Shown here: piece by piece, positions 26,227-43,239 of the stretch
How the letters are laid out: each line of letters opens with the position of its first letter
Position numbering within the stretch: position 1 is the first letter of the stretch
DNA from: Roseivirga sp.
GTDB lineage: Bacteria; Bacteroidota; Bacteroidia; Cytophagales; Cyclobacteriaceae
Reading direction: 5' to 3'
Assembly: GCA_021404565.1 (NCBI GenBank)
Contig: JAAWWF010000007.1
Coordinates: forward strand, 186,001 to 250,000
DNA: 64,000 nt
Made by a program: the position numbers and the translations under genes
The notes under the pieces: model-generated
Seen by the model: the letters and a program-made list of their open reading frames with translations, nothing else
The model's database searches: none
What the model was told of the DNA's origin: nothing

Positions 26227-26916
26227 ATGAATCAGTACAAAGACCTTTTTTATTCCTTCCATTACGATGAGATACAGGGGTTTGATGAAATCGAAAAAGT
26301 TGCCAGGGCTCTCTCCGAAATACCTACCGATTTTGATGTGGCTGAGCTACAAAAAAAACCGGGTCTTGACAGATACAAGCGCATGCGCGCCAGCCTCGAT
26401 ATATTACCCGACAAGAAACAGGCCCTTGGCCTCGAGGCCAAGGCTCATTTAAACAAAGTACTACCAAGTATAAAGCCGGAGGCAGAAGATACAAATCACA
26501 AACCTCATGAGAAATGGTCCTTCAGGCCTGGTCACATTGCTTTTAATCCAGCGTTGGGCCGACTCAATGAGTTAAAAACACTTCTCAACGACTACTTTGA
26601 TTTTCAATGTTTACAGGCAGGAGACTTTCTTTACCCTCCCGGTGGCTTCAGGCTGTGGCATACCAACAAGTTTGACTTGGAAAGCTGGTTCATATTTTTT
26701 GTTGATGTAGACAAACCGAAAGGTTCTTTTTTCAAGTTTATAGACCCTGATACCAATGAACTCATTACACACTGGGACGAACCGGGTACTGTCAATATTT
26801 TTAGAATAAGTAGCAACAACAGTGACTTGCTTTGGCATTGTATCGGATCGGAAGACTGCCACAGATGGAGTCAGGGATTTTCAATACCAGATAACTGGAA
26901 GGAAAAAGTATTATAG
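26227..26916 (+). CDS. Double-stranded beta-helix (2OG-Fe oxygenase-like) protein
   Basis: A 229-residue protein. The C-terminal half carries YPPGGFRLWHTN (H145, N147), SFFKFIDPDT, and a distal WHCI (H204) with R213. This is the layout of a small double-stranded beta-helix family related to 2-oxoglutarate/Fe(II) oxygenases. The first metal motif is H-x-N, not H-x-D, so iron binding is uncertain. The N-terminal 95 residues are helical. It is alone on the plus strand and overlaps the convergent HTTM gene by six bases. It may modify a peptide or glycan in this cluster; that is inference. Confidence 0.55.
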   Translation: MNQYKDLFYSFHYDEIQGFDEIEKVARALSEIPTDFDVAELQKKPGLDRYKRMRASLDILPDKKQALGLEAKAHLNKVLPSIKPEAEDTNHKPHEKWSFRPGHIAFNPALGRLNELKTLLNDYFDFQCLQAGDFLYPPGGFRLWHTNKFDLESWFIFFVDVDKPKGSFFKFIDPDTNELITHWDEPGTVNIFRISSNNSDLLWHCIGSEDCHRWSQGFSIPDNWKEKVL

Positions 26917-27729: not shown

Positions 27730-28232
27730 GGTAGCTTTATAAAATCACTTAATACCAGAACGATCTCCTCTTCATTAACAATTCGTTCTACCTTGATTTG
27801 CCTGTGCTTAGCTTCCTTGTCGCCTCGGTAGCTAAGTACTATACTCTGAAAAAAATTAAACCTAGACGAGTCTGAACTTGGCCTGCCCAAATAATGTAAA
27901 TGCGCAAAAGAGCGAATAGCGGCTATCATAAAACCATATAGTCGATTATCCGGATTGAGAAGAAAAAGTGTGGGCTTCCAGGGTTTCTCAAGATCGATCA
28001 GTTGCCATGCCCCTATTTCACCCGCTCTGTTCTTGTCGCGATACGAAACAGTAAAACGTTGGATTTCGCCACCTTTATCAGGCATAAACATCGTCCATTG
28101 ATTAAACCAGCCATTGAATCGGAGAAATTCTCTTAATCTCAGCCACCGGCCTTTATTTGTAAGAGTCACCCAAATGGTACACAATAACCAAAGAGAGAAA
28201 AAAAGTAGAGTGCCTGTTTCAAAAAACGTCAT
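27726..28232 (-). CDS. HTTM-associated small membrane-anchored protein
   Basis: A 168-residue protein with one N-terminal helix (about 5-25) and a soluble remainder. The motif RFNGWFNQWTMFMPDKG resembles the W-x-MFxP signature common in proteins paired with HTTM genes. Its stop overlaps the HTTM start by four bases and its start shares one base with the upstream stop (TAATG), so the pair is translationally coupled and probably forms a complex. No enzymatic motif is visible. Confidence 0.5.
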   Translation of the reverse strand: MTFFETGTLLFFSLWLLCTIWVTLTNKGRWLRLREFLRFNGWFNQWTMFMPDKGGEIQRFTVSYRDKNRAGEIGAWQLIDLEKPWKPTLFLLNPDNRLYGFMIAAIRSFAHLHYLGRPSSDSSRFNFFQSIVLSYRGDKEAKHRQIKVERIVNEEEIVLVLSDFIKLP

Positions 28233-29218
28233 TAGCTAGTTCCATTTTTTGCTCTTATTTGTTGAACTACCTGCTCCTTCTGTGCTAAAAGGTCCAGTTC
28301 CCATTGTTTGTAAAAAGGCTGCGGATTTATGCCACAACTAACCAGTTCTCTTTTCAACCAATCAAGTTTAGGTCCTTGAAACACCGTGAAATCCTTCTGG
28401 AAATTAACCCTATTTGGTGGTCTGAACAGTCGATGGTAATGGAATGTATGAATCTGATCCAGTGTCAACTGTGTATTTGATGCAGATAGATACATGTGGG
28501 TTTGAGGAGAATAATTATAGGTCACCGGCAGTTCTTTCATCGTCAGACCCATACTGCTGATGGTTGCTGAAAGTGTGGATTGTTCCACAAAAAACAGCCC
28601 CTCTTCTGGCTTCAGGCCACTGTCCATTATCTGTTCAAAATTTATTTGCCATTGCTCGAATAATCCGGATGTTCTGCGTGCAAAAATTAACCCTGCATTG
28701 TAATAACTGAATATTCTCTGCTCTCTAATACCTGTTTGTATAAAATCGGGCTTTTCTACCCCTAACCGGGCATAGAGTTCTTTCCAATAAGCAGTGTTTT
28801 CATCATTGCCATTAGTACCCACCCCTTTGAGGTTTACAACCCTCATCTGTACATCGGCATCATGGCCAGTAACAAACTCCTCCAAATTATTGAACACCAC
28901 CTGATCACTATCTAAAAACAGCAGGTAATCTTCTGAAAGATGTCTCGCATAATAATCACAGGCAACCACTTTGTTGGCAAAGTCATAGTTGGTGTATTTC
29001 CCATTAAGGAAAACGTATTCATGCCGAACGTTACATTCCTCAAAAACGACCTGTGTCTGCAAAGAAAGTGGTTGTGGGTTGCGAGGTTGTATACTATAAA
29101 CTGGCGCATCTTTTAGCACACCTCCAAACTTTCTAATACTCTTTACCAGTAGTTGTGACATACTCTCGAGAGCTCCGGGTTCTGTGCAAATAATAATAGC
29201 AATGGTCTTATCCTTCAT
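28232..29218 (-). CDS. GT-A-fold glycosyltransferase-like protein
   Basis: A 328-residue protein with a nucleotide-sugar transferase look. It has an N-terminal beta strand (TIAIIICTEPGALESM), the segment YLLFLDSDQVVFNNL with a DxD metal site near residues 103-105, and later a substrate-side IFSYYNAGLIFARR. These are features of GT8-like or related GT-A enzymes. It overlaps the upstream Asp/Arg hydroxylase by 11 bases and the downstream gene by one base. The acceptor is unknown. Possibilities are a modified peptide or a glycan. Confidence 0.6.
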   Translation of the reverse strand: MKDKTIAIIICTEPGALESMSQLLVKSIRKFGGVLKDAPVYSIQPRNPQPLSLQTQVVFEECNVRHEYVFLNGKYTNYDFANKVVACDYYARHLSEDYLLFLDSDQVVFNNLEEFVTGHDADVQMRVVNLKGVGTNGNDENTAYWKELYARLGVEKPDFIQTGIREQRIFSYYNAGLIFARRTSGLFEQWQINFEQIMDSGLKPEEGLFFVEQSTLSATISSMGLTMKELPVTYNYSPQTHMYLSASNTQLTLDQIHTFHYHRLFRPPNRVNFQKDFTVFQGPKLDWLKRELVSCGINPQPFYKQWELDLLAQKEQVVQQIRAKNGTS

Positions 29219-30134
29219 TACCGAAAAGTATTTGCAGATTCATCGAATTGGCCACCCTTGCTTTAAACACTGAGATCACTCTGACATTATTCACCTTGAA
29301 CCTGAGTGAGTCACCCAACTTGTCAGCCTCCTGCCTGGCTGTATTAATGGCTTTTTGATAGTACGCCACGGCCTGAGCACTGGCCCCAAACTTAGCTTCA
29401 ATAGCTTTCCACTCATCCTGATAGCTTCGAATCAGTTTTAACCAGGCATTTGCCTCGACACTATCTTCACAGAGATCAAGCTCTTTAACCAGCAGATTGA
29501 GTGTTTCTTCCAGATCAGCTCCGGATTTAATAACCGGTGTCGGATCATTTTCGAGTGTCAGTTCTTCAGATGCTGTAGTCATATTAAGCCCGGTTTTCAG
29601 GTTACCATGATCATCGAAGATATTAGCGGCTTCCGTATCAAAGACAAGATGAATACGGTTCTCTTTACCCTCATTGCGCACACCATGTCTCCTCCAATTG
29701 TCAAAAGTCCATACTTCTCCGGGTGCCATTACCACTTCTTCCTTATTGCATGCAAAGAATACTTTATCAGAACTTATGAGGGGTATGTGAATTCGAACAC
29801 GCCTATCCCAGTATTCATTGGTGTCAGAGTGAACAGGTACATCACAACCAGCCTCAAGCCTCATTAGTCTGGAAATACCAATAGGAAAATTGAACGATTT
29901 CAGTAAACCGGTCACAGCCGGCAGCTTCTCTGCGAATAGAGTAGGCTTTACAGGAGCTCGTTTAACATTATTGATAGTGCCCAGATAGCTTAATATTGGT
30001 ATGTACGAATTTCCTTCAAAGCCACTGGCGTGAGCTATCCAGTCAGACTCACATAAACTCCGGCCAACTTCTTGTGCCGCCTCCATTATCTCTCGCGAAA
30101 ATGGGAGTTTAAAAAATGGCTGTTTAAGGTTCAT
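29208..30134 (-). CDS. Aspartyl/arginyl beta-hydroxylase-like oxygenase
   Basis: A 308-residue protein whose first 170 residues match the Asp/Arg beta-hydroxylase fold. It has V101-H102-S-D104-TNEYW, RVRIHIPL, FDNWRRHGV (H150), and R160 for 2-oxoglutarate. The C-terminal 130 residues are helical with no known domain. The family hydroxylates Asp, Asn or Arg on the beta carbon in peptides, proteins or non-ribosomal products. It leads a four-gene coupled leftward operon (hydroxylase, glycosyltransferase, HTTM partner, HTTM). Beta-hydroxylation of an Asp in the nearby lasso precursor is possible but untested. Confidence 0.75.
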   Translation of the reverse strand: MNLKQPFFKLPFSREIMEAAQEVGRSLCESDWIAHASGFEGNSYIPILSYLGTINNVKRAPVKPTLFAEKLPAVTGLLKSFNFPIGISRLMRLEAGCDVPVHSDTNEYWDRRVRIHIPLISSDKVFFACNKEEVVMAPGEVWTFDNWRRHGVRNEGKENRIHLVFDTEAANIFDDHGNLKTGLNMTTASEELTLENDPTPVIKSGADLEETLNLLVKELDLCEDSVEANAWLKLIRSYQDEWKAIEAKFGASAQAVAYYQKAINTARQEADKLGDSLRFKVNNVRVISVFKARVANSMNLQILFGNEG

Positions 30135-30270
30135 TGCGTTTCTTTTCAGCTCTCAGCTGTAAAAATAAGTAGTTATATACATACCACATATTTCGAAGCA
30201 TACTTTCATGTAGTACAAATTATTTTCAAAAGTTTGACAAACAGGTCAATTGAGGTTCGAAATTATCCGT

Positions 30271-31376
30271 CTACTCAGAAGTAAGCTTTTGAACCAATGG
30301 CGTTAAGTATTCTGTGATTTTATCTGCCACAAATTCCGAGCCTTCGCTGTTGTAATGCACGCTATCATATATATGTTCAGGCAGAACTTGATTATCAAGA
30401 TCAATCATCAATACCTCTTCCTGCTTGCAGACATCCCTTATCACCTGGTTCATGCTAAAAAACAGCTTCTTATACTATTCAAACGATACGTTAAAACGGT
30501 TTGGAATAATACTGAGGTCGTTCCCAATACCCAAAAAATCGCCCTTGACCCTGTTACCCTGTGTCATCAGCACCGGGGTAACTCCCTTAATTCTTGAAAT
30601 GGAGACGAAAAGCTCCAGGTTTTCTTTGAATTTTCTCAAAATTACTGACTTATCTTCCTCAGTGAGTCGGGGGAGTTTCCTGACCTCCTTGGATGGTTTC
30701 TTTCGCATACTGGTCATCATGATATCAAATCGCATTCCTATGTGGGGAAAGACAGACTTGGCTTTAACGGCAAGTGCTGTTGTAAGCTTGAGCTCTTTGG
30801 TGATAATTTGTGTAGGACGCCCATTGATCTGCCAATATGACTTACTTCTGATGAGCTCATGAAATCATTGATATTATGCATCATTACCGCAATATCCGAT
30901 TCTTCGATGAGTACCTTGTTTAAGTAAATGTTCAGAGTATGGGCACTATTATTACCCGCCACTGCTGCATTCAGTGTATTCACCTTAAAACCATGTCTAT
31001 TGAATAACTGACCTACCAGGTATGGAAATCTCTTCTCTTCCGCTACAGCCCAGCACTCAGTGGTAGAGCCCCCCATAAAAGCAATGGTAGCATCAGGGTT
31101 TTTCAGAAGATTAGAGGGTTCGACATATCCTCTTTTGTCAACTTCAAACCTCACTTTCCGTGATTCACCGTTAGACTCACCACCGGTAAAGTAAGTCACC
31201 GGCTGATCATGCGTACGTGAAGTTCCGGGAGTATTCTCCTTCAAAAAAATATGTCTTTGAGGCACAAACTCTTTAGGTGTTTGTTCAGACAGGGGCCCCA
31301 ATAAAAACTCTGTACCAAATAGAAGAATTACAAATATGACAGTTGAAATCAGTAAGGTAAAAAGGCGTTTTTTCAT
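30271..31376 (-). pseudogene. Broken SGNH/GDSL hydrolase
   Basis: Read leftward from ATG 31374-31376, this encodes a signal-anchor start (MKKRLFTLLISTVIFVILLFG) and GGSTTECW, the SGNH nucleophile block. The frame is then lost near 30861, where one missing base in GATTT-CATGAG would restore FHELIRSKSYWQINGRP and the rest. Further on, an in-frame TAG at 30475-30477 interrupts ...NVSFE-stop-YKKLFF. The C-terminus then resumes with IDLDNQVLPEHIYDSVHYNSEG, the Asp-x-x-His end of the family. Joined, the pieces give about 368 codons, matching the intact 371-residue relative at 56533. Two independent lesions argue for a true pseudogene over a sequencing slip. Confidence 0.8.
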
Positions 31377-31604
31377 AATTTCTTCAATCAGGTTAGAAAA
31401 AAACGGTGTTGTCAACAAAAAAAAGCAAGGCAGTAGAAAGGCACTTTATTTCAATCAGAGCAGTTTCTTTTAGCATCAAATCAAAAGTAAGCACTTATTC
31501 ATAAATTTGGCTGTTGACAGCCTAATTGTAGTCTGATCAATACAAGGAAAACAGATCTGGATTTTATGCATGATTACTAGGTATATTAAAGATTGTTTGA
31601 AAGC

Positions 31605-32441
31605 ATGAAACATCTGATATGGATATGCTCATACCCCAAGTCAGGAAACACCTGGTTAAGAATTCTGCTGGACAGCATACTTCTGCATAATGGCAATAGT
31701 ATTGATATTAATCATATAAAAACCGCAAGTCGCAGAATTATCAAAAGACACTCTTTTGATGAATTTTTAGAGTTTGAATCTGATGAACTGACCCCATCAG
31801 AGATTCTAGCCTATAAGCAGAAGTACTATTTAGACTATGGCCTGAAGGCGACTCAAGATATTTTCGTGAAAACTCACGAAGCTAACTGGAGGGTAAATGA
31901 AAGAGAAAACCTGATACCAGAAGAGGTAACAAAGTTAGGTATTTACATTGTGCGGAACCCTTTAGACATCGTGAGCTCCCTTGCCGGTTACCATACCGTC
32001 ACAATCGATGAAGCCATTCAAATACTGGGCAATCGCGATTATACATTATTTGGGCTTGACCGGGGAATTGGCCGTAATGTCCCTGTAAAAGTGGGTGACT
32101 GGAGTTTTAACGTCAGCAGTTGGTTGAATTCGAAACAGCTACCGCTGGTATTTATCAAATATGAAGACCTTCTTTATGAACCTGTCGAAGCCCTAAGCAA
32201 AATTATGAAGGGTTTAAAACAGCCAATTGATCAACGATTGATTAAAAATGCGGTAGAAAACCACAGATTTGACCGCTTAGTACACCAAGAGACGAATCAC
32301 GGTTTTATAGAGAGGCCAAAAAAAACCGATGCCTTCTTCAGAAAAGGCAAATCAGGATCGTGGAAAGAAGAACTCTCGACCAAACAAATTGATCAGGTAC
32401 GAAAAACGCACCATGAAGTGATGACTCAATTAGGTTATTGA
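31605..32441 (+). CDS. PAPS-dependent sulfotransferase (first paralogue)
   Basis: A 278-residue sulfotransferase. The 5'-phosphosulfate loop SYPKSGNTW lies at about 9-17 and the 3'-phosphate motif IYIVRNPLDIVSSLA near 115-129. The C-terminal FFRKGKSGSWKEEL is the RKGxxGxWK PAPS-binding signature. The start is ATG 31605; a TTG 12 bases upstream is in frame. It transfers sulfate to a hydroxyl group. It is closely similar along its whole length to the sulfotransferase at 34672 in the lasso operon. An inverted repeat GGCTGT-TG-ACAGCC (31509-31522) and a TAAATTTG box (31502-31509) lie upstream. Confidence 0.9.
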   Translation: MKHLIWICSYPKSGNTWLRILLDSILLHNGNSIDINHIKTASRRIIKRHSFDEFLEFESDELTPSEILAYKQKYYLDYGLKATQDIFVKTHEANWRVNERENLIPEEVTKLGIYIVRNPLDIVSSLAGYHTVTIDEAIQILGNRDYTLFGLDRGIGRNVPVKVGDWSFNVSSWLNSKQLPLVFIKYEDLLYEPVEALSKIMKGLKQPIDQRLIKNAVENHRFDRLVHQETNHGFIERPKKTDAFFRKGKSGSWKEELSTKQIDQVRKTHHEVMTQLGY

Positions 32442-32570
32442 ATCTTCATTGAGTTGCTGAAAAAGGATAATCGTCTTCTCGTTGTTTCTATAGATTCAAA
32501 CCCGGAAAGGCACAAAAGCGAATACAAGTCAGACAGACCGTTTTCAACAATTCTCCAAGCGTGAACTCCA

Positions 32571-32602
32571 TTTGAATTGGTAGAGGTTTTAATCTAACTT
32601 TA
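32571..32602 (+). promoter_or_regulatory. Promoter candidate for the P4H-like gene
   Basis: TTTG (32571-32574), 20 bases, then TAACTTTA (32595-32602). This is one mismatch from the Bacteroidetes TAnnTTTG box at near-consensus spacing. It lies in the 240-base gap after the first sulfotransferase and about 80 bases before the oxygenase ATG. Nothing else is visible in that gap. Confidence 0.45.
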
Positions 32603-32681
32603 TCCATTTATCAGGAGATATTGGATTTGTAATTCGGTATTCTCCAAAGTGTCTCTAGTTCAATATCACAAATGAGCTTTC

Positions 32682-33581
32682 ATGCCTGATGATGTGGATG
32701 ATAATTACGCAATAGAGCGAACAAGTCTCATTTTGTTCCAAAAAGTCGTTTCTACATTAAACGAACGCTTAAAAGATCAACCTGACAACGCTACTATCAA
32801 ACTCAAATTAATTGACTTTTACCGGAAACTGGGTCATCCGGACAAAGTCAGAGAATTGTTGGAAAGCTTTGAATTCAATGATCTGGATACCTACCATAAA
32901 AATCTTTGGTCTTATTTCTCGGTAAAGTCGCCTGATTCGAAAATTAGCAATTCCGAGTCTTCTCCTTTTTTCCAGGTCCATAATTTCTTATCAAAACCAG
33001 CACTGGAGCAGATTTGGCAGTTGATAGAACAAAATCTGGACAAAACCAGGGAATCTCAGGTTTCAGGACTTCATCAAGCAGGTTCTGACCCTCGTTCAGG
33101 GCTCTATGATTCTAAAACACGTTCATCACGAATAATTAACTCTGACGCCATCAAACCAATCAGGAATTGGTTTTTGGCTTTGATTGAAGATCAACTACCA
33201 AAGATTAAATCCCAGTTATCACTAACTGATTACTCCATCCCTCAATGTAGGGAATTGCAGTTGACTCGCCATCAGCATGGTGATTTTTACGGCTTGCATC
33301 AGGATATTTCTCAGGACAAAAACAAACCTGTATCTACACGGAGATTCACGTTTGTTTATTACTTTTTCAAAGAGCCCAGGGGCTTTGATGGCGGTGATCT
33401 ACTAATGTACGTTGCCAATACAAAAGAGGGGCTGCTATCCAATGCATTTACACGTATCATTCCTAAAAATAACACGCTCATTTTCTTTCCAAGTGATCGC
33501 TTTCATCAGGTAACAATGATCAACAGTGCAGGGCGGGGAATTGAACATTCACGCTTCACTTTAAACGGTTGGTTTCATTAG
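32682..33581 (+). CDS. Prolyl-4-hydroxylase-like 2OG-Fe(II) oxygenase
   Basis: A 299-residue protein. Residues 8-75 form helical hairpins like a short TPR region. Residues 95-299 are a P4H-type oxygenase with RHQHGDFYGLHQD (H206-x-D208), FFPSDRFHQV (H275) and R291 (RFTLNGWFH) as iron and 2-oxoglutarate ligands. Family members hydroxylate proline or other residues in peptides. It stands between the two paralogous sulfotransferases and upstream of the lasso kinase. The precursor has Pro42 and Pro52, so peptide hydroxylation is a reasonable hypothesis. It has its own likely promoter at 32571. Confidence 0.78.
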   Translation: MPDDVDDNYAIERTSLILFQKVVSTLNERLKDQPDNATIKLKLIDFYRKLGHPDKVRELLESFEFNDLDTYHKNLWSYFSVKSPDSKISNSESSPFFQVHNFLSKPALEQIWQLIEQNLDKTRESQVSGLHQAGSDPRSGLYDSKTRSSRIINSDAIKPIRNWFLALIEDQLPKIKSQLSLTDYSIPQCRELQLTRHQHGDFYGLHQDISQDKNKPVSTRRFTFVYYFFKEPRGFDGGDLLMYVANTKEGLLSNAFTRIIPKNNTLIFFPSDRFHQVTMINSAGRGIEHSRFTLNGWFH

Positions 33582-33659
33582 GCAATGTTGCTCCGGGTTT
33601 GGTGCCCTCCATCATTGAACATAAATGACCTGAGCCTCATTTTTTCTTTGTTGTCCTTA

Positions 33660-33667
33660 TAAATTTG
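33660..33667 (+). promoter_or_regulatory. -7 box candidate for the lasso operon
   Basis: TAAATTTG is an exact TAnnTTTG match 99 bases before the kinase ATG. The -33 position is poor (CATT). It lies in the 185-base gap upstream of the kinase-sulfotransferase-cyclase-precursor operon. No better candidate was seen. Confidence 0.35.
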
Positions 33668-33766
33668 CTTTCAATGAAGAAACATTTAAAAAAATTGATA
33701 GGTTCGCAAAGAGATATAAGCAGGGCATTCTAATACCATACCTGCATTGACACTCCATATATTTTA

Positions 33767-34675
33767 ATGAATTTGTATTATTATAAAGCCTACGGATTAA
33801 TATTTCAATCAGAGTTTCCCATTGAAGGGTTGTCAAAAGAATCAATCTGCGAAAACCCAGATGTAGTTCTGAAAATTGGCAAGCTGGACGTGAGTCCTTA
33901 CGATCTGGTCAAAGGCTTTTTAGTGAAAGAAATAATTCCTGAAGGATTCCTTTACGGTATCAAAGATCTGGCTACTTTTCTTGTTTCAGATGGGAAACAA
34001 GTAATCGTTGACCCTTTGACAGACGAAACAGAACTTTGGCAAATGTACCTGCTAGGTTCAGTGATGGGTGCCATTTTACAACAAAATGGATTTTTAACAC
34101 TCCATGGCAGTGCCTTCGTATTTAACAACAAGGCACATCTGATTTTAGGAGCTTCGGGCATGGGTAAATCGTCCATTGCTATGGCCTTGCACCAAAAAGG
34201 TTATGAACTTCTCACAGATGATATTTGTGCGATTAAGTTCAACAGCGATAACAAGCCTGATTTACATATTGCCAGTAAGCATATAAAGTTGTGGGAAGAT
34301 GCCATTGAGCATCTCGATACAGCTCAGGAAGGGATGCCCAGAGTACGTAAAAGTTTACCCAAATTCAGGCTACTACTTGATACAACCCATGATCAGGACA
34401 AATATGAACTGGGCAATATTTTTGTGCTCAATATTAAGCGTTTGGCAGAGGGGCAATTTTCCTTTAAAAACCTGAATACCATGGAGTTTCTCCATCACCT
34501 AAACCTAAACGTCTATCGTAAAAAGTTCTTATTGGATATGGGAAATCAAAAAGAGGCTTTTTATATGCTCAGTCAGCTCACAAACAATGCGCTGGGAACT
34601 GTATTGAACAGAACTCATTCGGGTACAGATGTACGTTTGGTAGCAGAGAAAATCGAAGCGTTTTTAAAGCAGTGA
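33767..34675 (+). CDS. HPr-kinase-like lasso-peptide kinase
   Basis: A 302-residue protein of the HPr kinase/phosphorylase-like family found in lasso-peptide clusters. It has LHGSAFVF (H113), the P-loop G128-ASGMGKS-S136, and LLTDDICAI with Asp151/Asp152. The N-terminal 100 residues are a separate cap. In the paeninodin cluster the homologous kinase phosphorylates the C-terminal Ser of the precursor, and the precursor here also ends in Ser. It is the first gene of the four-gene operon and overlaps the next gene by four bases (GTGA). It lacks the trimer-forming regions of true HPr kinase, and no HPr is encoded nearby. Confidence 0.82.
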   Translation: MNLYYYKAYGLIFQSEFPIEGLSKESICENPDVVLKIGKLDVSPYDLVKGFLVKEIIPEGFLYGIKDLATFLVSDGKQVIVDPLTDETELWQMYLLGSVMGAILQQNGFLTLHGSAFVFNNKAHLILGASGMGKSSIAMALHQKGYELLTDDICAIKFNSDNKPDLHIASKHIKLWEDAIEHLDTAQEGMPRVRKSLPKFRLLLDTTHDQDKYELGNIFVLNIKRLAEGQFSFKNLNTMEFLHHLNLNVYRKKFLLDMGNQKEAFYMLSQLTNNALGTVLNRTHSGTDVRLVAEKIEAFLKQ

Positions 34676-35529
34676 AGCATCTTATCTGGCTTGCATCATA
34701 CCCCAAATCAGGAAATACCTGGTTCAGGATTCTGCTAGATAGCATCCTGTTGCACGAGGGTGGGCCGGTAGATATCAACCGGGTCAAAACTGCCAGTCTA
34801 AAGATTATCGAGAGACAACAATTTGATGAGTTTCTGGAGTTTGACTCTGGTGAACTCACCATGCAGGAGACCCAATCCTTTAAACGTAAATATTATCTGG
34901 AATACGGGCATAAGGCCACTGAAAGCACTTTTATTAAAACACATGAGGCCAATATTACGGTAGATGATCATGAGCGCCTTATTCCTGAACAAGTAACCAA
35001 ACTGTGTATCTATATTGTCAGAAATCCGCTCGATATCGTCTGTTCGTTGGCTAATCACTATATAGTTAGCACAGATGAAGCGATAAAAATTATGGGGGAC
35101 AGCTCCTACACATTTTTCCGGCATGAAAAAGGCATTACGTCTAATATACCGGAAATGATAGGAGACTGGAGCATGCATGTAAACAGCTGGTTGAATACCG
35201 GGAAACTTCCCGTGATACTGATCAAATATGAAGATTTACTAAGTAAACCCATTCAGACACTCGGCATGGTAATGCAAAAGTTGGATCAACCTGTATCTGA
35301 CCTTATACTGCAACGTGCCGTAAATAATCATAGCTTTGAAAAGCTTGCCCATCAGGAGTCAAAGCATGGTTTCCGTGAGAAAGTTGTAGCTTCTTATGCC
35401 TTTTTCAGAAAAGGAAAAGCGGATTCATGGAAAGAAGAGCTTACACAAGGGCAAATTAGCAGGATGATTGAGAGTCATCATCAGGTAATGAATAACTTAG
35501 GCTATAGCACCCATATTAATAAGCAATAA
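34672..35529 (+). CDS. PAPS-dependent sulfotransferase of the lasso operon (second paralogue)
   Basis: A 285-residue sulfotransferase starting at GTG 34672, which overlaps the kinase stop. It has SYPKSGNTW (9-17), IYIVRNPLDIVCSLA and FFRKGKADSWKEEL, so all PAPS-binding motifs are intact. It clearly shares most positions with the sulfotransferase at 31605 and has the same length. It ends three bases before the cyclase start. Sulfotransferases occur in a minority of lasso clusters. A likely acceptor is a hydroxyl residue of the precursor such as Tyr56 or one of the serines, but a glycan or lipid target is not excluded. Confidence 0.88.
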   Translation: MKHLIWLASYPKSGNTWFRILLDSILLHEGGPVDINRVKTASLKIIERQQFDEFLEFDSGELTMQETQSFKRKYYLEYGHKATESTFIKTHEANITVDDHERLIPEQVTKLCIYIVRNPLDIVCSLANHYIVSTDEAIKIMGDSSYTFFRHEKGITSNIPEMIGDWSMHVNSWLNTGKLPVILIKYEDLLSKPIQTLGMVMQKLDQPVSDLILQRAVNNHSFEKLAHQESKHGFREKVVASYAFFRKGKADSWKEELTQGQISRMIESHHQVMNNLGYSTHINKQ

Positions 35530-35532
35530 GAG

Positions 35533-37419
35533 ATGTCTTATATCTACGGCATTGTTTGCCATCCGGAAGAGGTAGATCCAGAGTCACTGGCTATACTGAA
35601 AGCCGATCTTCAGCGATATCCAACGGATGGCCATATTAGGCTTACAGAAGGTATGATATCAGGTGGATTATTCTATCAGAATCTTAGAAAGCCACCATTT
35701 CCCTCAGAAGCCCCTGTCAAAGATCCCGATACAGGCATTGTCATTTTTGCCAGTACTAGGCTGGACTACCGGGCATTGTTAATAAAAAAGCTGGAGTTAG
35801 ACAAAGGCCAGCTGAATCAGTTAACCGATACACAACTGATTCTCAAAGCATACCTGAAATGGGGCGAGAATTGTGTTGATAGACTGGAAGGTGATTTTTC
35901 ATTCCTTATCTGGAATCCCTCAAAACAATATCTCTGGGGAGCACGAGACCCCCTGGGTTTTCAGCCTCTTTTTTTCGCCATTAAAGAGAAAACCTGTTTC
36001 TTTTCCAGTCATACCAATGGCCTGGCCAGATTATCGGGTATAGACAGAAGGCCCGATGAAGCATTTCTTGCCAGTAGATTGCTAAGGTCGCAAGCTTCTC
36101 TCCTGGCAACTCCTTACAGAGGCATAAGCCAAATTCCCATAGGGCATACGATCAAAATTGATCAGGACCAGGTGGGTATCAAAAAGTACTACCATTGGCA
36201 GACCACCCCCATGCGGCAGAAAATATCACGGGAAGACTATGCCTCCGAACTGTCAACACTTTTATCTGGTGCCATTGAAACCAGACTTTACTCAGATTAT
36301 CCGGTAGGAGGATTCCTTAGCGGGGGGCTGGACTCCAGCTCTGTGATGTCTATAGTCCAATCATTATTGCATCAACAAGAACCGGGAAGGGCCCTCATTA
36401 CAGCTTCATCAGTACATCCGAAAGAAAGTGACACCCGGTATGAAGACGAAAGACCGTGGGTGGATATGTTCAGTAAGTATTTCCCAAATACTCAAATTAA
36501 CTATTGTACGCTTGAAGATATACCTCCGCTACGCCCGGAAGATGCGGAGTTTTTTTCAACCACCCGGCTGCGCAGATACCCCACCATGTTCATGACCGAG
36601 TTGATGCAAAGCAAGCTTGTAGCCGCAGGCTGCCGCACCTATTTTACCGGTTGGAGAGGTGACCATTTTATTTCAAGAAGGGGATACGCACACTATACCG
36701 AGTTTCTGAAGCGAGGCAAGTTCCGAACACTACACAAGGCAATACGGGATACAGCCGCTTTTACTAACCGAAATCCAAAAGCCTTGCTCAAAGCAATTAT
36801 CAAAGATAATCTTCCCAGCAAGGGGGTTGATTCCAGAAACTTTCCGGGATTGAAATTCTTGAACAGCGAATGGACAGAGAGTGTTTGGGCAAAAGACAAA
36901 CTATCGAAACCCCGATGGAAACTGAATGATCTAAACCATGATTTTTGGTGGTATTTACCTGATCGCCAGGGAACACATCAATATTATGAAGATACCAGTT
37001 ATCATAATAAATCGGTATTGAAGCGAATGATTCCATTGTCAGACCCCAGGATCATCAACTTTGCTCTTCAGTTGCCGGCAGAAGAGTTTTCAAAAGGTGG
37101 TATGGACAGGAGTATTATGAGAAGAGCCGTCAGTGATTATCTGCCTGACGAACTACGGCTGAGAAATACCAAAGGCAGCTTCATGGGCAATGAATCTGCT
37201 GTCGCGGCCAAAATACATCAGCTGTGGCTGGATCAAAACAATATAAAAGATATCACCAATAAATCACCAATAAGTACAATTATAAACCCTATTCAAATCA
37301 ACAAATACATACATAAACACAAGACAAACATAAAAAATGGAGATACAGATTTACATCATGAAAACACCTATTTATTGAATTTGTTAGGATTTTTGTTTTT
37401 CTTTGATCGAAATAGATGA
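35533..37419 (+). CDS. Lasso-peptide cyclase (asparagine-synthetase-like, C protein)
   Basis: A 628-residue asparagine-synthetase homologue. The N-terminal glutaminase-like domain begins MSYIYG and lacks the catalytic Cys2, as is usual for lasso cyclases. The ATP-pyrophosphatase loop is S263-GGLDSS, followed by RYEDERPWV and FTGWRGDHFISRRG. The enzyme would adenylate an Asp/Glu side chain and close the macrolactam with the new N-terminal amine. It is third in the operon, three bases after the sulfotransferase stop and 13 bases before the precursor ATG. True asparagine synthetase is unlikely without Cys2 and beside B1, B2 and a kinase. Confidence 0.85.
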   Translation: MSYIYGIVCHPEEVDPESLAILKADLQRYPTDGHIRLTEGMISGGLFYQNLRKPPFPSEAPVKDPDTGIVIFASTRLDYRALLIKKLELDKGQLNQLTDTQLILKAYLKWGENCVDRLEGDFSFLIWNPSKQYLWGARDPLGFQPLFFAIKEKTCFFSSHTNGLARLSGIDRRPDEAFLASRLLRSQASLLATPYRGISQIPIGHTIKIDQDQVGIKKYYHWQTTPMRQKISREDYASELSTLLSGAIETRLYSDYPVGGFLSGGLDSSSVMSIVQSLLHQQEPGRALITASSVHPKESDTRYEDERPWVDMFSKYFPNTQINYCTLEDIPPLRPEDAEFFSTTRLRRYPTMFMTELMQSKLVAAGCRTYFTGWRGDHFISRRGYAHYTEFLKRGKFRTLHKAIRDTAAFTNRNPKALLKAIIKDNLPSKGVDSRNFPGLKFLNSEWTESVWAKDKLSKPRWKLNDLNHDFWWYLPDRQGTHQYYEDTSYHNKSVLKRMIPLSDPRIINFALQLPAEEFSKGGMDRSIMRRAVSDYLPDELRLRNTKGSFMGNESAVAAKIHQLWLDQNNIKDITNKSPISTIINPIQINKYIHKHKTNIKNGDTDLHHENTYLLNLLGFLFFFDRNR

Positions 37420-37432
37420 TATTCGTAAAGCT

Positions 37433-37609
37433 ATGAACTCACAGAAAGGACTAAAAAAAGAAGATCAGAACAACAGAACCGGTAAAATGGTCTGGCAGCT
37501 TCCTGAACTCATAGAGTTAGACATTAACGAATCAACATTGAACGTTACTAAAGTTCCGGGTGTATCAGTTAACGATGGAGGCGACCCCTTCTCTGACTAC
37601 AATAGCTAA
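37433..37609 (+). CDS. Candidate lasso-peptide precursor
   Basis: A 58-residue peptide starting at ATG 37433, 13 bases after the cyclase stop. The basic N-terminal part (MNSQKGLKKEDQNNRTGK) leads into W21-Q-L-P24-E-L-I-E-L-D, a Trp variant of the YxxP-x-L recognition motif bound by B1/RRE proteins. A plausible core is GVSVNDGGDPFSDYNS (43-58). Gly43 and Asp51 would give a nine-membered ring, with a seven-residue tail holding Tyr56 and a C-terminal Ser58. The usual Thr at -2 is absent (VP precedes Gly43), so the cut site is uncertain. Assignment rests on size, position in the operon, WxxP motif and acidic C-terminal core. Confidence 0.78.
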   Translation: MNSQKGLKKEDQNNRTGKMVWQLPELIELDINESTLNVTKVPGVSVNDGGDPFSDYNS

Positions 37610-37620
37610 TTAGTAGTTTC

Positions 37621-37899
37621 TTAGCGTGCAAGCACCATCTTTCTTTCGTGCAAGTCCTGAATAAAATCCTTGCAGTTATTGGCACAAGTTTCTGTGTCTA
37701 CCTCAAAAACACTTGTAAGTCTGGAAACCAGGTCATCGAAGGACACTTCTTCATTCATAGCCTGCCAGATATATGAGGCTACCTGATTCATCCCAAAGTA
37801 TTTTCCACTTTCAATGCTCATCAGTGCCAGTGATTCACCGAGGCCTGCCTCGATCAGGTCATCGGATTTCTTAAGTAAGGTGCTTCCTTTTATTTCCAT
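37621..37899 (-). CDS. PqqD-like lasso B1 / RiPP recognition element protein
   Basis: A 92-residue PqqD-family protein. The pattern L-x-S-x-x-x-GKYFGMN-x-VASYIW-x-x-M followed by a helical half is the winged-helix RiPP recognition element. B1 proteins bind the precursor leader at its YxxP-type motif and present it to B2 and the cyclase. The gene is on the opposite strand to the operon and ends only 11 bases from the precursor stop, with no terminator visible between them. A near-perfect promoter lies 22 bases upstream of its ATG. Confidence 0.87.
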   Translation of the reverse strand: MEIKGSTLLKKSDDLIEAGLGESLALMSIESGKYFGMNQVASYIWQAMNEEVSFDDLVSRLTSVFEVDTETCANNCKDFIQDLHERKMVLAR

Positions 37900-37920
37900 A
37901 TCCTAAGCAATTGCTTCGGA

Positions 37921-37951
37921 CAAAAGTAGAGTAACGCTGTACAAATGCAAA
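37921..37951 (-). promoter_or_regulatory. Promoter of the B1 (PqqD-like) gene
   Basis: On the minus strand TTTG (37951-37948), 19 bases, then TACTTTTG (37928-37921). This is an exact match to the Bacteroidetes TTTG-N19-TAnnTTTG consensus. Transcription should start around 37914-37916, just ahead of the ATG at 37899. Confidence 0.75.
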
Positions 37952-38088
37952 ATTGAATAAATTCTTTTTCAGATGTGCCAGAGTAATCTGTAACTAATTC
38001 TGTTTCCAGTCTCATTCAAATTTCAATGACTCAAATTTTCAAAATGAATTCATGAGTCTTAACTTATACATTCTCTAATAAACCCACT

Positions 38089-38562
38089 ATGGAAAAGGTT
38101 TTTGAATTTGATGCTGTTATTCAAAACGGAGGGGAAAAATGGCCGGAAGCCTCCTGTGTGTATTTCCCTTTTGATGTACAAGAGTCCTTTGGTACCAAGG
38201 GCCAGGTAAAGATTAACGCTACCTTCGATGGAGTTCCCTACAGAGGTTCACTAGCCAACATGGGCTCTGGGCATATTGTGATACTCCGAAAAGATGTAAA
38301 AGCTCAGGTAGGTAAAGGTCATGGTGACACCGTGAGAGTTACGGTACAAAAAGACACTCAGGAACGTATTGTTGATGTACCTCAGGAACTACAAGATGCC
38401 TTTGAGGCTGCTCCTGATGCTAAAGCCTTCTATGATACATTATCCTATACCAACCGAAAAGAATACGCACGCTGGATCAGTAGTGCCAAACGTGAAGAAA
38501 CCAAAGAAAGAAGGTTGGCCAAGACGCTCGATATGCTAAATAATGGTATCAAACACCCTTAA
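38089..38562 (+). CDS. YdeI/OmpD-associated (OmdA) family protein with DUF1905
   Basis: A 157-residue protein with an N-terminal DUF1905 barrel (about 3-85) and a C-terminal OmdA/YdeI segment (about 95-150, LSYTNRKEYARWISSAKREETKERRL). The second domain is named for bacteriocin protection after work on Salmonella YdeI, which aids resistance to cationic peptides. Such genes are common outside bacteriocin clusters, so the neighbourhood with lasso genes may be chance. It is 61 bases before the PhyH gene, on the same strand. Confidence 0.8.
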   Translation: MEKVFEFDAVIQNGGEKWPEASCVYFPFDVQESFGTKGQVKINATFDGVPYRGSLANMGSGHIVILRKDVKAQVGKGHGDTVRVTVQKDTQERIVDVPQELQDAFEAAPDAKAFYDTLSYTNRKEYARWISSAKREETKERRLAKTLDMLNNGIKHP

Positions 38563-38623
38563 AATCAGCTCCACAATATGATCATATCAGAAAATATCTC
38601 TACCTACTCTTGTACCCATTACC

Positions 38624-39463
38624 ATGGAGTTTAGCCCTGAAGAAAAAAGAACAGGCAAGCTTAGTGAACAAAGACTGGCAGCCCTTGTGAAGGAGTTCAG
38701 AGCCAAAGGCTACCTTGTAATCGAGAATCACTTTTCAAAAGAGAAAATAGAAGAATTGAACACCAGTTTCGAAAGAGATTATTCTCATCATTTCGATGAC
38801 AAACAACACAAAGATGCCAGAATGTTCAGCCACAGAAGGCCCTGCATCACTATCGATGTCAAAGAAGAGTTTAATGCTCCCGAGATCTACTGTGACCCTT
38901 TGATTCTTCAGGTAATGGGCCACCTTTTAGAACCTGATTTTGTCATTTGCAATTTAACATGTGTGCTCTCTCTTCCCGGATCAAAACAAATGAAAGTACA
39001 CAGAGATGGTACGATATTCAACGGCAGTCCGGTAAAGGCAATGTTGCCTTCTTTTGCCATCGGTATGCTCATACCTTTGATTCCTTTTAATAAAACCAAT
39101 GGTACTACCCGATTTTGGCCCGGCAGCCACCTGGGCAACAGCACCATAAAAGAAACTGCCCAAAGCCCTGATTTTATTGAAGCAGACATTGACCAGGGTT
39201 CTTGTATCCTTATGGATTACCGACTTTGCCACAGTGGAAATGCCAATAACTCTGATTCTGTCAGACCTCTGTTATATTGCAACTATAGCAACGCCTGGTA
39301 TATAGATGTGGGAAATTTCCGGGAGCAGGCTCACTTTTATCTGAATGATGAGGAATTCATGAAAATACCGGAAGAGCACCGCAAATTATTTGTGCGCAGG
39401 AATGTTAATTTCACTTCTACCTTCAAACTCCTCAACGATCAGGAAAATTATTTCTCTAAATGA
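38624..39463 (+). CDS. PhyH-family 2OG-Fe(II) dioxygenase
   Basis: A 279-residue phytanoyl-CoA-dioxygenase-family protein. The iron triad H126-x-D128 (KVHRDG), H203 (LCHSGN) and the 2-oxoglutarate Arg214 are present, with RFWPGSHL before the second part. The family hydroxylates or halogenates small molecules, lipids and peptide-bound residues. It overlaps the CxxCxxCC protein by four bases (ATGA), so they are made together. The substrate is unknown; the nearby peptide and glycan clusters are both candidates. Confidence 0.82.
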   Translation: MEFSPEEKRTGKLSEQRLAALVKEFRAKGYLVIENHFSKEKIEELNTSFERDYSHHFDDKQHKDARMFSHRRPCITIDVKEEFNAPEIYCDPLILQVMGHLLEPDFVICNLTCVLSLPGSKQMKVHRDGTIFNGSPVKAMLPSFAIGMLIPLIPFNKTNGTTRFWPGSHLGNSTIKETAQSPDFIEADIDQGSCILMDYRLCHSGNANNSDSVRPLLYCNYSNAWYIDVGNFREQAHFYLNDEEFMKIPEEHRKLFVRRNVNFTSTFKLLNDQENYFSK

Positions 39464-39987
39464 CTGACAATAGCTCTTCAAGTCTTTGCACCCAATGTGG
39501 AGTTTGTTGTGATGGCTCATTCTTTGAACTGGCAGGTGTCCGGCCTTCTGATTTAAACGATGCTACACGAAAACTGGATATGGTGAAGACAGGGGATAAA
39601 CTTCAAATAAACCTCCCGTGTTCAGCACATATAAATAACCGTTGCACTATCTATGACCAAAGACCCTGGGTGTGTAGGGCCTATGAGTGCAAACTTTTAA
39701 AAGAGCACAAGCGTGGAGAGGTAAACAAAGATGAAGCCTTGAGTACTATTAATAATCTGAAATCTGCTTTAGAGGAGATTAATGCACTTTTGGAGAGCGC
39801 AGGTGTTCCAAAGGCGAATCATGGAATCCACAAAAGAATGAGGGTTCTGGAACAGGAGTCACTTAGCAAAGTGTCACTACCCGAATATCGCAAGACTCAT
39901 GGCCCGTTAATTATAAAACATCGCCTCCTTCAAAAACTTCTGGCGGAGAGATTTGGGATAATTTTTCAAAAGAAAAACCGGGCTTAG
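39460..39987 (+). CDS. YkgJ-family CxxCxxCC cysteine-cluster protein
   Basis: A 175-residue protein with C-T-Q-C-G-V-C-C near residues 8-15, followed by CSAHINNRCTIYDQRPWVCRAYEC, the full cysteine set of the YkgJ/CxxCxxCC family. These proteins bind Zn or Fe (proposed Fe-S) and are often found beside Fe-dependent oxygenases. The gene is coupled to the PhyH gene by an ATGA overlap. A role in metallating or repairing that enzyme is inference. Confidence 0.8.
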   Translation: MTDNSSSSLCTQCGVCCDGSFFELAGVRPSDLNDATRKLDMVKTGDKLQINLPCSAHINNRCTIYDQRPWVCRAYECKLLKEHKRGEVNKDEALSTINNLKSALEEINALLESAGVPKANHGIHKRMRVLEQESLSKVSLPEYRKTHGPLIIKHRLLQKLLAERFGIIFQKKNRA

Positions 39988-40093
39988 TCTATCACTTCGG
40001 TATGAGAGTACCAAAATAAGCCCTGCCTTATGAAAGTATTAAGGCAAGCTGCTATATTGCTTCTGCTGAAGCACCCATTTTCAGGAATGCCCA

Positions 40094-41284
40094 ATGAAAC
40101 AATTAGAACAACTTCTGGGGATCTCAAGTCGGGAATTTTTTTCGATTTATCACGAACAAAAACACCTGCTTGTGCCTTCGGCTTCATCCTCTGGTTTCAA
40201 CGATGCGCTGGAGCTTTCAGATATCGAGACCTACCTGGCTACCGTACCCATGCACCACGGGCAGGTAGTACTTGTAAATCATAACAGAAGGCCATGGGCC
40301 GATCAATTTCTGAAAGTAGAGAACGACTATGTGACCGGAAATGTCATAGATATCCGTAAACTGATGAACCTCCTGAGGAATGACACCACCGCCATTCTTG
40401 GAGACATGTCTAAATATATTCCCAAACTCAACCGTTACTGCGAACGACTGGAAGATGAACTTGGAGTAAAGCTTCAGGCTAACATCTATATTACCCCACC
40501 AAAATCTCAGGGCTTCAATGTGCACATCGACAGTCATGATGTATTTGTTCTGCAGCTCTTTGGCAAAAAAACCTGGCACTTGTATGAAGGGATGGTTGAA
40601 TATCCTACTAAATCTCTGATTAGAGAACAAAAGAAGTTTTCAGCAGAAGAGCATAAGCTTGCTGCACAACTTGAACTAAGACCAGGTGATTTGCTTTATG
40701 TACCACAGGGAATGTATCACGATGCCAGCACACATGATGACCCCTCCATTCACATTACACTAGGTCTTTTACCCAGAAGACGTTCAGAGATTCTGAAAAT
40801 GCTGTCGGAGGGAGTAAAGGATCATGATTTCTTCAGACGCCCTGTACCCGGAAACCTAAAAGATCAATCCATTAAAGAAGCATTTTTCAAAGAATTCAAA
40901 GAGGCATGCCATCAGCTCATAGATGAGGCAGATTTGAGCATATTGCTCGAAGAATTTTCCCATCAGTTTACAGCGAGACAGTCCCCCGACCTGAAGGGAA
41001 CTCTTTCCAGCATTTTAAGTGCAGATCAACTCAAACCAGACTCTCAACTACAAAGGAAGCCTCAAATCAGATATTGGCTGGAAGAAGAAACCTGGTTTAC
41101 GGTAGTTCATTTTTACAATGAGAAAGTGCAGGTTCCCAAGCCGATAACCGGGGTCTTAGAAGTTATCCTCGGCAAGGCCCCTTTTTCTCCTGCTGAAATA
41201 AGTTCCGACCTGGGAGATCAGGTCAAACTTGACCTGGTTAAAAAATTTGTTGTCACTGGTTTTTTGAGTATCGTTAAGCTTTAG
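40094..41284 (+). CDS. JmjC/cupin-type 2OG-Fe(II) oxygenase
   Basis: A 396-residue protein of the cupin-like JmjC family that includes the bacterial ribosomal oxygenase YcfD/RoxA. It has NVHIDSHDVF (H144-x-D146), FGKKTWHLYE and LYVPQGMYHDA (H209). The C-terminal part (about 230-396) is the dimer/winged-helix region. RoxA-type enzymes hydroxylate Arg in ribosomal protein L16; divergent members modify other peptides. Here it stands 106 bases after the YkgJ gene, far from ribosomal genes, so a secondary substrate is plausible. Start at ATG 40094. Confidence 0.8.
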   Translation: MKQLEQLLGISSREFFSIYHEQKHLLVPSASSSGFNDALELSDIETYLATVPMHHGQVVLVNHNRRPWADQFLKVENDYVTGNVIDIRKLMNLLRNDTTAILGDMSKYIPKLNRYCERLEDELGVKLQANIYITPPKSQGFNVHIDSHDVFVLQLFGKKTWHLYEGMVEYPTKSLIREQKKFSAEEHKLAAQLELRPGDLLYVPQGMYHDASTHDDPSIHITLGLLPRRRSEILKMLSEGVKDHDFFRRPVPGNLKDQSIKEAFFKEFKEACHQLIDEADLSILLEEFSHQFTARQSPDLKGTLSSILSADQLKPDSQLQRKPQIRYWLEEETWFTVVHFYNEKVQVPKPITGVLEVILGKAPFSPAEISSDLGDQVKLDLVKKFVVTGFLSIVKL

Positions 41285-42295: not shown

Positions 42296-43239
42296 AGGAA
42301 CAAAGTACTACCACATCTCCTATAGAATCAGCGGTGCTTAAAGTACTGGCTTACTATCATATTTTCCATCATCCGCTCACAGCAAAAGAGGTAAGGGACA
42401 GAGTAGATATTTCCGATATAAGTCAAGGTGCGGTTGATGAAACCCTCAGTGGTCTACTTAGTACAGGAATTATTTCAGAACATTCAGGCTATTACTTTCT
42501 TCCTGATTCAGAGACAATCGTGGAAAGAAGACTTAATGGTGAATCGAGGGCCCAAAAGCTACTGGGTACTGCTCATCGGATGTCAGGAATCATCTATTGG
42601 TTTCCCTTTGTACAGGCAGTTTTCATCTCAGGGTCCTTATCTAAAGGCACCGTGGCCGAAGATGCCGACATAGACTACTTCATTATTACCAAAAAGAATA
42701 AACTCTGGATAGCCCGCACTCTGCTGGTCATCTTCAAACGCGTTTTTCTTCTGGGATCCAAGAAGTATTTCTGCGTGAATTATTTCGTAGATGAAGATCA
42801 CCTGGAGATTCCTGACAAGAACATATTCACAGCTACCGAGGTAAGCACTCTTATTCCTATGCGGGGAAAAGAGTTATGGACAAAATTCATTGAACAAAAC
42901 TCATGGTACAAACAGTTTTATCCGAATATTGAACCAGGGGAAGTTGCTCACCCAAAGCCGCGGTTATCGAAGCGATTTTCAAAGGCTTTATTGGAGCCCT
43001 TGTTTTTCCATTCACTTGCAGAAAAGCTTGACAAGTACTGCATGAAAAGGACTTATGCCCGATGGACCAATATGTATGAGGAGCGCTATAGTGACAAAGA
43101 GTTTGAGCTGGCATTCAGAACACATCGTGGTACTTCAAAAAACCACGATAAAAACTATCAAAAAAGAGTACTGAGAGCCGTAGAGGAAAACCTGGACAAG
43201 GCAATCAGGCAGATTAAAACAGAAACCGTAAATGGCTAA
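42292..43239 (+). CDS. Nucleotidyltransferase-fold protein with N-terminal winged helix
   Basis: About 315 residues, starting at ATG 42292 inside the previous stop. Residues 15-75 look like a winged-helix. The central ISGSLSKGTVAEDADIDYFIIT carries GS...D-x-D, the minimal nucleotidyltransferase core. The family pattern continues with NYFVDEDHLEI and LYTATE-like segments, and the remainder is helical. Such proteins recur in surface-glycan and radical-SAM loci, but their reaction is not known to me. The end overlaps the radical SAM gene by eight bases. Confidence 0.65.
   Translation: MKEQSTTTSPIESAVLKVLAYYHIFHHPLTAKEVRDRVDISDISQGAVDETLSGLLSTGIISEHSGYYFLPDSETIVERRLNGESRAQKLLGTAHRMSGIIYWFPFVQAVFISGSLSKGTVAEDADIDYFIITKKNKLWIARTLLVIFKRVFLLGSKKYFCVNYFVDEDHLEIPDKNIFTATEVSTLIPMRGKELWTKFIEQNSWYKQFYPNIEPGEVAHPKPRLSKRFSKALLEPLFFHSLAEKLDKYCMKRTYARWTNMYEERYSDKEFELAFRTHRGTSKNHDKNYQKRVLRAVEENLDKAIRQIKTETVNG

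Follow-up and report, generated by a model that had tools for sequence, protein, structure and literature searches.

The locus at positions 33,767 to 37,899 of this stretch raises the question of what product is made by a cluster in which genes for a kinase, a sulfotransferase, a cyclase and a 58-residue peptide lie side by side. The stretch (64,000 nucleotides, here called the window) is part of contig C31 of a Roseivirga genome of 8.57 Mb that is 98.4% complete. An earlier reading of the letters alone, the original prediction, had described the locus as a complete lasso-peptide operon with a sulfated and phosphorylated product. The reading preferred here, to which a probability of roughly 0.7 is given on the basis of sequence comparison, is that the locus would encode a lasso peptide phosphorylated at its C-terminal Ser and sulfated, probably at a nearby Tyr.

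The kinase (K), sulfotransferase (ST2), predicted cyclase (C) and precursor (A) genes form a tight rightward operon, with a 4-base overlap between K and ST2, a 3-base gap between ST2 and C and a 13-base gap between C and A. The gene for B1, a recognition element of ribosomally synthesized and post-translationally modified peptides (RiPPs), converges on the operon from the other strand, and its 3' end lies 11 bases from the precursor stop codon. Each of these genes was found where the original prediction had placed it, including the B1 gene, which matched the PqqD family (PF05402, 62.8 bits, above the cut-off). The cyclase begins MSYIYG and lacks Cys2, as had been claimed.

Two congeners of the host, G009 and G013, were used for comparison. 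Residues 19 to 58 of the precursor are identical in the window and G009, with 24 synonymous and no nonsynonymous codon changes; residues 1 to 18 show 2 synonymous and 7 nonsynonymous changes. In G013 residues 19 to 58 carry Ser34 to Ala, Asp51 to Asn and Ser54 to Thr, together with 15 synonymous changes. Judged by these codon patterns, the precursor is real, and the operon is not a chance arrangement, because the block to which it belongs is syntenic in both congeners and the precursor is under strong purifying selection. This cyclase was found (E≤1e-40) in three of 59 genomes, comprising the host and 58 relatives, and the 58-residue reading frame is conserved beside it in both relatives that have it. 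The leader contains the motif W21xxP24xL26, with Trp in place of the Tyr of a YxxPxL-type motif. Thr39, at position -2, and Asp48, at core position 8, are invariant in the three genomes; Asp48 is the best candidate for the ring acceptor, since Asp51 is Asn in G013. For the same reason a nine-residue ring from Gly43 to Asp51, which would have begun with Gly, was rejected. From Asp48 and from Thr39 at -2 we infer the core VPGVSVNDGGDPFSDYNS with a Val1-Asp8 ring. The tail reads ...DPFSDYNS, and the C-terminal DYNS, which ends in Ser, is present in all three genomes.

The cyclase scored better against the lasso cyclase model NF033535 (4e-79) than against the asparagine synthase model TIGR01536 (1.9e-46). 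In a tree of 57 rows it fell among the cyclases of loci that bear the leader peptidase B2 (L104, L123, L080, L028 and L081; fork 94/87, not starred). Twelve asparagine synthetase rows of the MCG type, which have Cys2, formed a separate clade (99/99), outside which the cyclase of the window lies. Lasso and non-lasso labels were imperfectly separated in this tree (3 changes): L150, labelled non-lasso and without Cys2, falls among the lasso rows, and L057 and L109, labelled lasso, pair with a long non-lasso row at a join flagged by the program as possibly false. The lasso identity proposed earlier is supported by the matches to lasso enzyme families, the conservation of the precursor and the cyclase tree. 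Neither of the outcomes named in the original prediction as refuting it, grouping of the cyclase with true asparagine synthetases or lack of conservation of the 58-residue frame beside cyclase genes in relatives, was observed. By these measures the cluster is a lasso system, and it is likely that the block from 22382 to 41284 makes a lasso peptide, the product itself being predicted. That a lasso-like cyclase instead makes another macrolactam or a linear RiPP is most improbable. The start of the core and the ring acceptor are predictions, and the predicted ring begins with Val and not Gly, but the block has B1, B2, C and a precursor with a leader, and core Asp8 is invariant in the three genomes at a ring size of 8.

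Regions of up to 20 kb were fetched around B2 genes, some of them ending at contig edges; the B2 genes came from 37 of 291 genomes of the order, 36 of 395 of the phylum and 7 of 59 near relatives. Profile searches gave 78 regions with B2, three of which are the Roseivirga block and 75 of which are others. A pair of K with a sulfotransferase of this kind (ST) was found in seven of the 75 other Bacteroidota regions (L029, L088, L089, L090, L091, L108 and L123), and in 7/7 the ST gene overlaps K on the same strand. K was also present in 54 of the 68 regions that lack this ST. The motifs YPKSGNTW, K89-x-H91 and RNPL with S125 were invariant in 12 aligned STs; we take the first to be the P-loop for 3'-phosphoadenosine 5'-phosphosulfate (PAPS), the second to hold the catalytic His and the third to be the 3'-phosphate site. 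In the kinases, H113, K134, D151 and D152 were conserved in 69, 69, 68 and 67 of 69 aligned proteins, and these H-K-D-D residues are needed by the K relatives studied, according to excerpts of PMC9266682. One of them, PadeK, takes the precursor and not the threaded peptide as its substrate, phosphorylating the C-terminal Ser (excerpts of PMC9266682 and PMC8498205).

A lasso-ST profile was built from 12 STs, namely 11 from the set of B2 loci and ST1, a paralogue of ST2 in the window (58% identity); the ST2 of G013, cut by the end of the stretch, was excluded. When at most the six best candidates of each of the 395 phylum genomes were scored, values above 350 bits occurred only in lasso clusters (the two of this genome and those of G414 and G547); a third copy of this genome, at 277 bits, lies in its second lasso cluster, and the remainder scored 176 bits or less. 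This ranking alone is not proof, since the profile itself derives from lasso STs and no more than six candidates per genome were scored. The best match of the profile in the PDB was the glycopeptide-antibiotic sulfotransferase TEG12 (6.1e-24), with human SULT1B1 and then Teg14 (7.4e-22) close behind and StaL lower (1.1e-16), among human SULTs. Glycopeptide-antibiotic sulfotransferases act on phenols.

Some features of the other K-ST regions were recorded in passing. L088, L090 and L091, which belong to one genus, hold 10, 11 and 8 precursor genes found by rule, many of them with a GxDGG..(T/A)Y-like core. In both L108 (10506-13178) and L123 (12588-15233), which come from two different families, the lasso genes are accompanied by a formyltransferase gene (Pfam) and by three phage-tail-collar-like genes that were identified by eye, one of them tested against Pfam.

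Support for sulfation from another angle came from adenosine 5'-phosphosulfate (APS) kinases, the enzymes that produce the sulfate donor PAPS, inside lasso clusters. An APS kinase gene lies in or beside the cluster in five of the seven other lasso regions with this ST (L088, L089, L090, L091 and L123); in L123 a CysD-like gene (Pfam PAPS_reduct) is followed by one for a CysN-like protein fused to APS kinase, beside the cyclase. L121 (153-5636) and L125 (9084-14972) contain APS kinases and Sulfotransfer_2 genes and no Sulfotransfer_1 gene. The profiles found Sulfotransfer_2 in no other B2 region. These two apparently represent independent recruitment of a different sulfotransferase family. Overall, 7 of the 10 cluster types with an ST had an APS kinase, against none of 66 B2 regions without a match to the ST profiles used (p = 5e-8, with related rows among those counted); the Roseivirga block was counted as one cluster type, and inclusion of the second cluster of this genome, which has no B2, gives 7/11. 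By genus, with figures entered by hand, the count was 4/7 against 0 of about 25 (p = 0.001), with genera g1, g87 and g181 represented on both sides of the test. The genomes of L088 and L090 (G233 and G273) carry another full APS kinase copy elsewhere, so the copies in these two regions can be dedicated to the lasso cluster.

A different explanation is that the peptide is phosphorylated only and that ST1 and ST2, though they travel with the cluster, have some other substrate, such as a polysaccharide. Other sulfotransferase-like genes do lie in the window (48652-49485 and 52897-53637), and the APS kinase of this genome is outside the block. This explanation is nevertheless very improbable, since lasso loci of several genera combine a K-ST pair with B1 and B2, the presence of APS kinase follows that of ST among lasso regions, and the ST subfamily scoring above 350 bits was not found outside lasso clusters among the best six or fewer candidates of each of the 395 genomes. 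The phosphorylated and sulfated product of the original prediction is backed indirectly, by the kinase motif, the ST motifs, the adjacency of K and ST and the co-localised APS kinases.

The probable site of sulfation was sought in the precursor tails, using a rule-based precursor list in which the three Roseivirga copies counted as one type and the second cluster of this genome as another. Where the list gave a precursor, a tail Tyr was present in 7 of the 8 cluster types that have ST, compared with 10 of the 25 K regions that lack this ST (p = 0.024, with related rows). The 25 are those of the 54 K regions without this ST that gave at least one precursor, the other 29 giving none; they include an obvious chance open reading frame (L074, counted as Tyr) and L121 and L125, with their Sulfotransfer_2 genes.

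Alternatively, the sulfate might be placed on a sugar, a phosphosugar or Ser/Thr, with ST acting on what K and a nucleotidyltransferase or glycosyltransferase have added at the C-terminal Ser. It agrees with this proposal that ST always directly adjoins K, that NTP_transf_5 genes occur in four of the seven other K-ST regions and near both the second cluster of this genome and the G013 cluster, and that L123 combines a K-ST pair with a found precursor that has no Tyr. A precedent is pseudomycoidin, a phosphorylated lasso peptide glycosylated by a nucleotidyltransferase-like protein (excerpts of PMC8498205), which we infer to belong to NTP_transf_5; it resembles the present system in having a kinase and a second decorating enzyme, and differs in that a sugar is added there and a sulfate is predicted here. 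The proposal is unlikely, given that no NTP_transf_5 gene was found in the block of the window, that regions lacking this ST have such genes just as often (47/68 B2 regions), that tail Tyr is distributed as described above and that the PDB entry matched best, TEG12, is a sulfotransferase of glycopeptides, an enzyme of phenols.

Several observations weigh against a phosphorylated and Tyr-sulfated lasso peptide. The precursor found in L123, a K-ST region, has no Tyr, and several L090 precursors lack both Tyr and a C-terminal Ser; Tyr is therefore not a universal target of ST, and the proposition that the target is always Tyr was rejected. In L029 the rule-based list gave no precursor. Three gene calls score below the cut-offs of their models: K with 30 bits against the Pfam cut-off of 33.3, C with 266.9 bits against the curated NCBIfam cut-off of 525 (NF033535) and B1 with 60.3 bits against a curated 80 (NF033536). 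More residues than usual separate the W-P-L motif from Thr39, for which reason the start of the core is treated as predicted. Human SULTs score almost level with TEG12. The Fisher tests count related regions as independent. The APS kinase of this genome is on another contig, C16, as it is away from the lasso cluster in G036, G414 and the three Roseivirga genomes, and those of L089, L091 and L123, each the only full-length APS kinase found in its genome, may also serve general metabolism. Lastly, the operon is not complete as had been supposed: B2, the only one found in the genome with two family models, lies outside it, 11 kb from K, and the conserved block contains no ATP-binding cassette (ABC) exporter.

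A second lasso cluster, which the original prediction had not included, is present on the same contig. Its B1 scored 98.7 bits, over the cut-off, and its cyclase 417.5 bits to the lasso model, below the cut-off of 525. It contains a kinase and sulfotransferase pair (K2-ST3) 4 bases apart, a PhyH and a CxxCxxCC protein with 55% and 44% identity to their window counterparts, two Asp-hydroxylase-like genes, two other sulfotransferase-like genes (Sulfotransfer_2 and Sulfotransfer_4) and a 48-residue precursor ending NPFYHT. Both precursors of the genome end in PF and then Y-x-[S/T], with two residues intervening in one of them. No B2 was found in the second cluster; because only one was found in the genome, that single B2 probably serves both clusters, unless a gap in the assembly hides another. 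An ABC transporter gene after the cluster (C31:26708-28492) encodes a protein with 61% identity to one located 3 kb beyond the G013 block.

Gene-by-gene comparison with G013 and G009 delimited a single syntenic block, bounded by B2 (22382) at one end and a JmjC-type oxygenase (41284) at the other, within which the original prediction had also passed over B2, ST1 and several Fe/2-oxoglutarate (Fe/2OG)-type oxygenases. The block lies at C30:76800-94054 in G013 and is divided in G009, where one part is at the end of C181 and the other at the start of C175. Cys83 and His118 of B2 were invariant across eight aligned B2s. The ArsP-type permease-UnbV fusion that adjoins B2 is a possible export or immunity partner. 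When at most the 13 best candidates per genome were scored, it had matches (E≤1e-100) only in this genome (3 copies), G009 and G013 among the 59 genomes. One further copy of this genome is 6 kb from the precursor of the second lasso cluster; the third, on C18, was considered as the mark of a third lasso cluster, and lasso genes were not seen nearby by eye.

On the other side of the operon, the PhyH-type oxygenase had five matches (E≤1e-30) in 4 of 59 genomes, every one within a lasso cluster, and homologues of the CxxCxxCC protein occur in lasso regions L028, L080 and L081 and in the second cluster. A YdeI-like gene (38089) was found in G009 and not in G013. The ABC transporter at 46892-48625 was rejected as the lasso exporter, as it lies beyond the block common to the three genomes; it has 24-30% identity over 199-242 residues to the ABC genes near the G013 block and the second cluster.

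Other members of the block are less readily assigned a part. The conserved 229-residue protein gave no match in Pfam and NCBIfam searches, and its AlphaFold2 model was discarded as unusable (predicted local distance difference test score of 33). Homologues of the HTTM-domain protein adjoin the cyclase in two mutually similar lasso loci of the genus, L022 (10018-11334) and L024 (12098-12922). In L022 a 162-residue protein beside it resembles by eye the 168-residue partner in the window; a family search gave no match for either small protein. The SGNH-hydrolase-like gene has an unbroken relative at the equivalent place in G013 (L015:16657-17769), and none was found there in G009. Beyond the block, two B12-binding radical SAM genes flanking a methyltransferase gene (43232-46877) are conserved in G009 and were not found in the fetched G013 stretches.

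Table 1. Features of the predicted lasso-peptide block and of the second lasso cluster. Positions are those of the window, except where a contig is given.
Feature	Position	Strand	Evidence or remark
B2 leader peptidase (lasso_biosyn_B2 / Transglut_core3)	22382-22825	-	NF033537 90.7 bits (cut-off 33); PF13471 2.6e-22
ArsP-type permease fused to FG-GAP/UnbV domain	22881-26033	-	adjoins B2
229-aa conserved protein	26227-26916	+	77-79% identity in G009 and G013
HTTM-domain membrane protein	26911-27729	-	PF05090 9.2e-7
168-aa small membrane partner of HTTM protein	27726-28232	-	conserved in G009, G013
Glycosyltransferase-like protein (weak)	28232-29218	-	PF00535 E 0.2 only; conserved in G009, G013
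Aspartyl/asparaginyl beta-hydroxylase-like oxygenase	29208-30134	-	PF05118 2.3e-14; conserved in G009, G013
SGNH-hydrolase-like gene in three open reading frame pieces	30271-31418	-	
ST1, sulfotransferase paralogous to ST2	31593-32441	+	PF00685 3.3e-22; conserved in G009, G013
2OG-Fe(II) oxygenase	32682-33581	+	PF13640 2.7e-16; present in G009, not found in G013
K, HPr-kinase-like lasso precursor kinase (predicted)	33767-34675	+	PF07475 Hpr_kinase_C E 4.5e-7
ST2, predicted PAPS-dependent sulfotransferase	34672-35529	+	PF00685 Sulfotransfer_1 1.1e-20; GTG start
C, predicted lasso macrolactam cyclase	35533-37419	+	NF033535 4e-79; tree
A, 58-aa lasso precursor	37433-37609	+	ATG start 37433; predicted core VPGVSVNDGGDPFSDYNS = residues 41-58
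B1, PqqD-like RiPP recognition element	37621-37899	-	PF05402 3.9e-17; NF033536 (lasso_PqqD_Bac) 1.5e-16
PhyH-type Fe/2OG oxygenase, lasso-associated	38624-39463	+	PF05721 4.1e-18
CxxCxxCC protein, lasso-associated	39460-39987	+	PF03692 7.6e-7
JmjC_2/cupin oxygenase, end of syntenic block	40094-41284	+	PF08007 1.7e-27; conserved in G009, G013
Second lasso cluster of the genome	C31:4865-17120		about 190 kb from B2 of the window

In the pathway proposed, K would transfer phosphate from ATP to Ser58, the C-terminal residue of the precursor in its linear form, in the manner of PadeK for paeninodin, and ST2, perhaps with ST1, would move sulfate from PAPS to a nearby hydroxyl, most likely that of Tyr56 in the acidic tail. 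B1 would present the leader through W21xxP24xL26, B2 would cut after Lys40, with Thr39 at -2, and C would close the Val1-Asp8 macrolactam on VPGVSVNDGGDPFSDYNS. The calculated [M+H]+ of this lasso peptide is 1807.777 without modification, 1887.743 with phosphate, 1887.734 with sulfate and 1967.700 with the two together. The conserved Fe/2OG-type oxygenases may add hydroxyls, export would probably depend on an ABC exporter encoded elsewhere, and the only B2 found would also serve the second K-ST lasso cluster of the contig.

Among known systems, TEG12, Teg14 and StaL are linked to this one as PDB matches of the ST profile, and differ in that their substrate is a nonribosomal peptide. RaxX, the substrate of RaxST, is not a lasso peptide. 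The kinase-tailored lasso peptides of the paeninodin type (PadeK, ThcoK and SyanK) share the HPr-kinase-like K, the H-K-D-D motif and a precursor with a C-terminal Ser (excerpts of PMC8498205 and PMC9266682). The present system differs from them in being from Bacteroidota, in having B2 outside the operon, a K gene that overlaps an ST gene and extra oxygenases, and in being known from its genes alone. The sulfatyrotide system RaxX/RaxST offers Tyr sulfation of a ribosomal peptide, with RaxST co-expressed with the PAPS-making RaxP and RaxQ (excerpts of PMC9484694), and in canucin an iron/2-oxoglutarate enzyme, the hydroxylase CanE, tailors a lasso peptide (as given by a title cited in PMC13352647).

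The closest precedent for the gene association is in Firmicutes, where a putative sulfotransferase gene starts some lasso clusters (excerpts of PMC8498205, citing Zhu 2016c), an association missed by the original prediction. It might be argued from this that the locus is an ordinary phosphorylated-type lasso cluster, of a kind in which sulfotransferases are already known and only the product is missing. We consider this improbable, as the literature searched, which was mostly without subscription papers, described no sulfated lasso peptide and, for lasso peptides together with APS kinase, returned nothing. The Firmicutes clusters have the sulfotransferase gene at the cluster start, with no sulfated product reported in section 8 of PMC8498205, whereas the Bacteroidota clusters have ST directly after K, in several genera and in some cases with APS kinases. 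What appears to be new is thus the pairing of K and ST in Bacteroidota with APS kinases, together with the sulfated product that is predicted; the gene association is known from another phylum.

The near-total conservation of leader and core in three species suggests a conserved role for the peptide and not one in fast-changing warfare. More broadly, the balance of the evidence leans towards a Bacteroidota class of sulfated, and phosphorylated, lasso peptides, whose hallmark would be the K-ST pair, often with an adjoining APS kinase; its origin would have involved two or more families of sulfotransferase (Sulfotransfer_1 and Sulfotransfer_2), and in this strain one B2 would serve two systems. 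For the peptide of the window the modification site is predicted, the exact masses have been calculated and a clean genetic test is available. If a peptide kinase and a sulfotransferase do work next to each other on a single small scaffold, they would provide new tools for making sulfopeptides.

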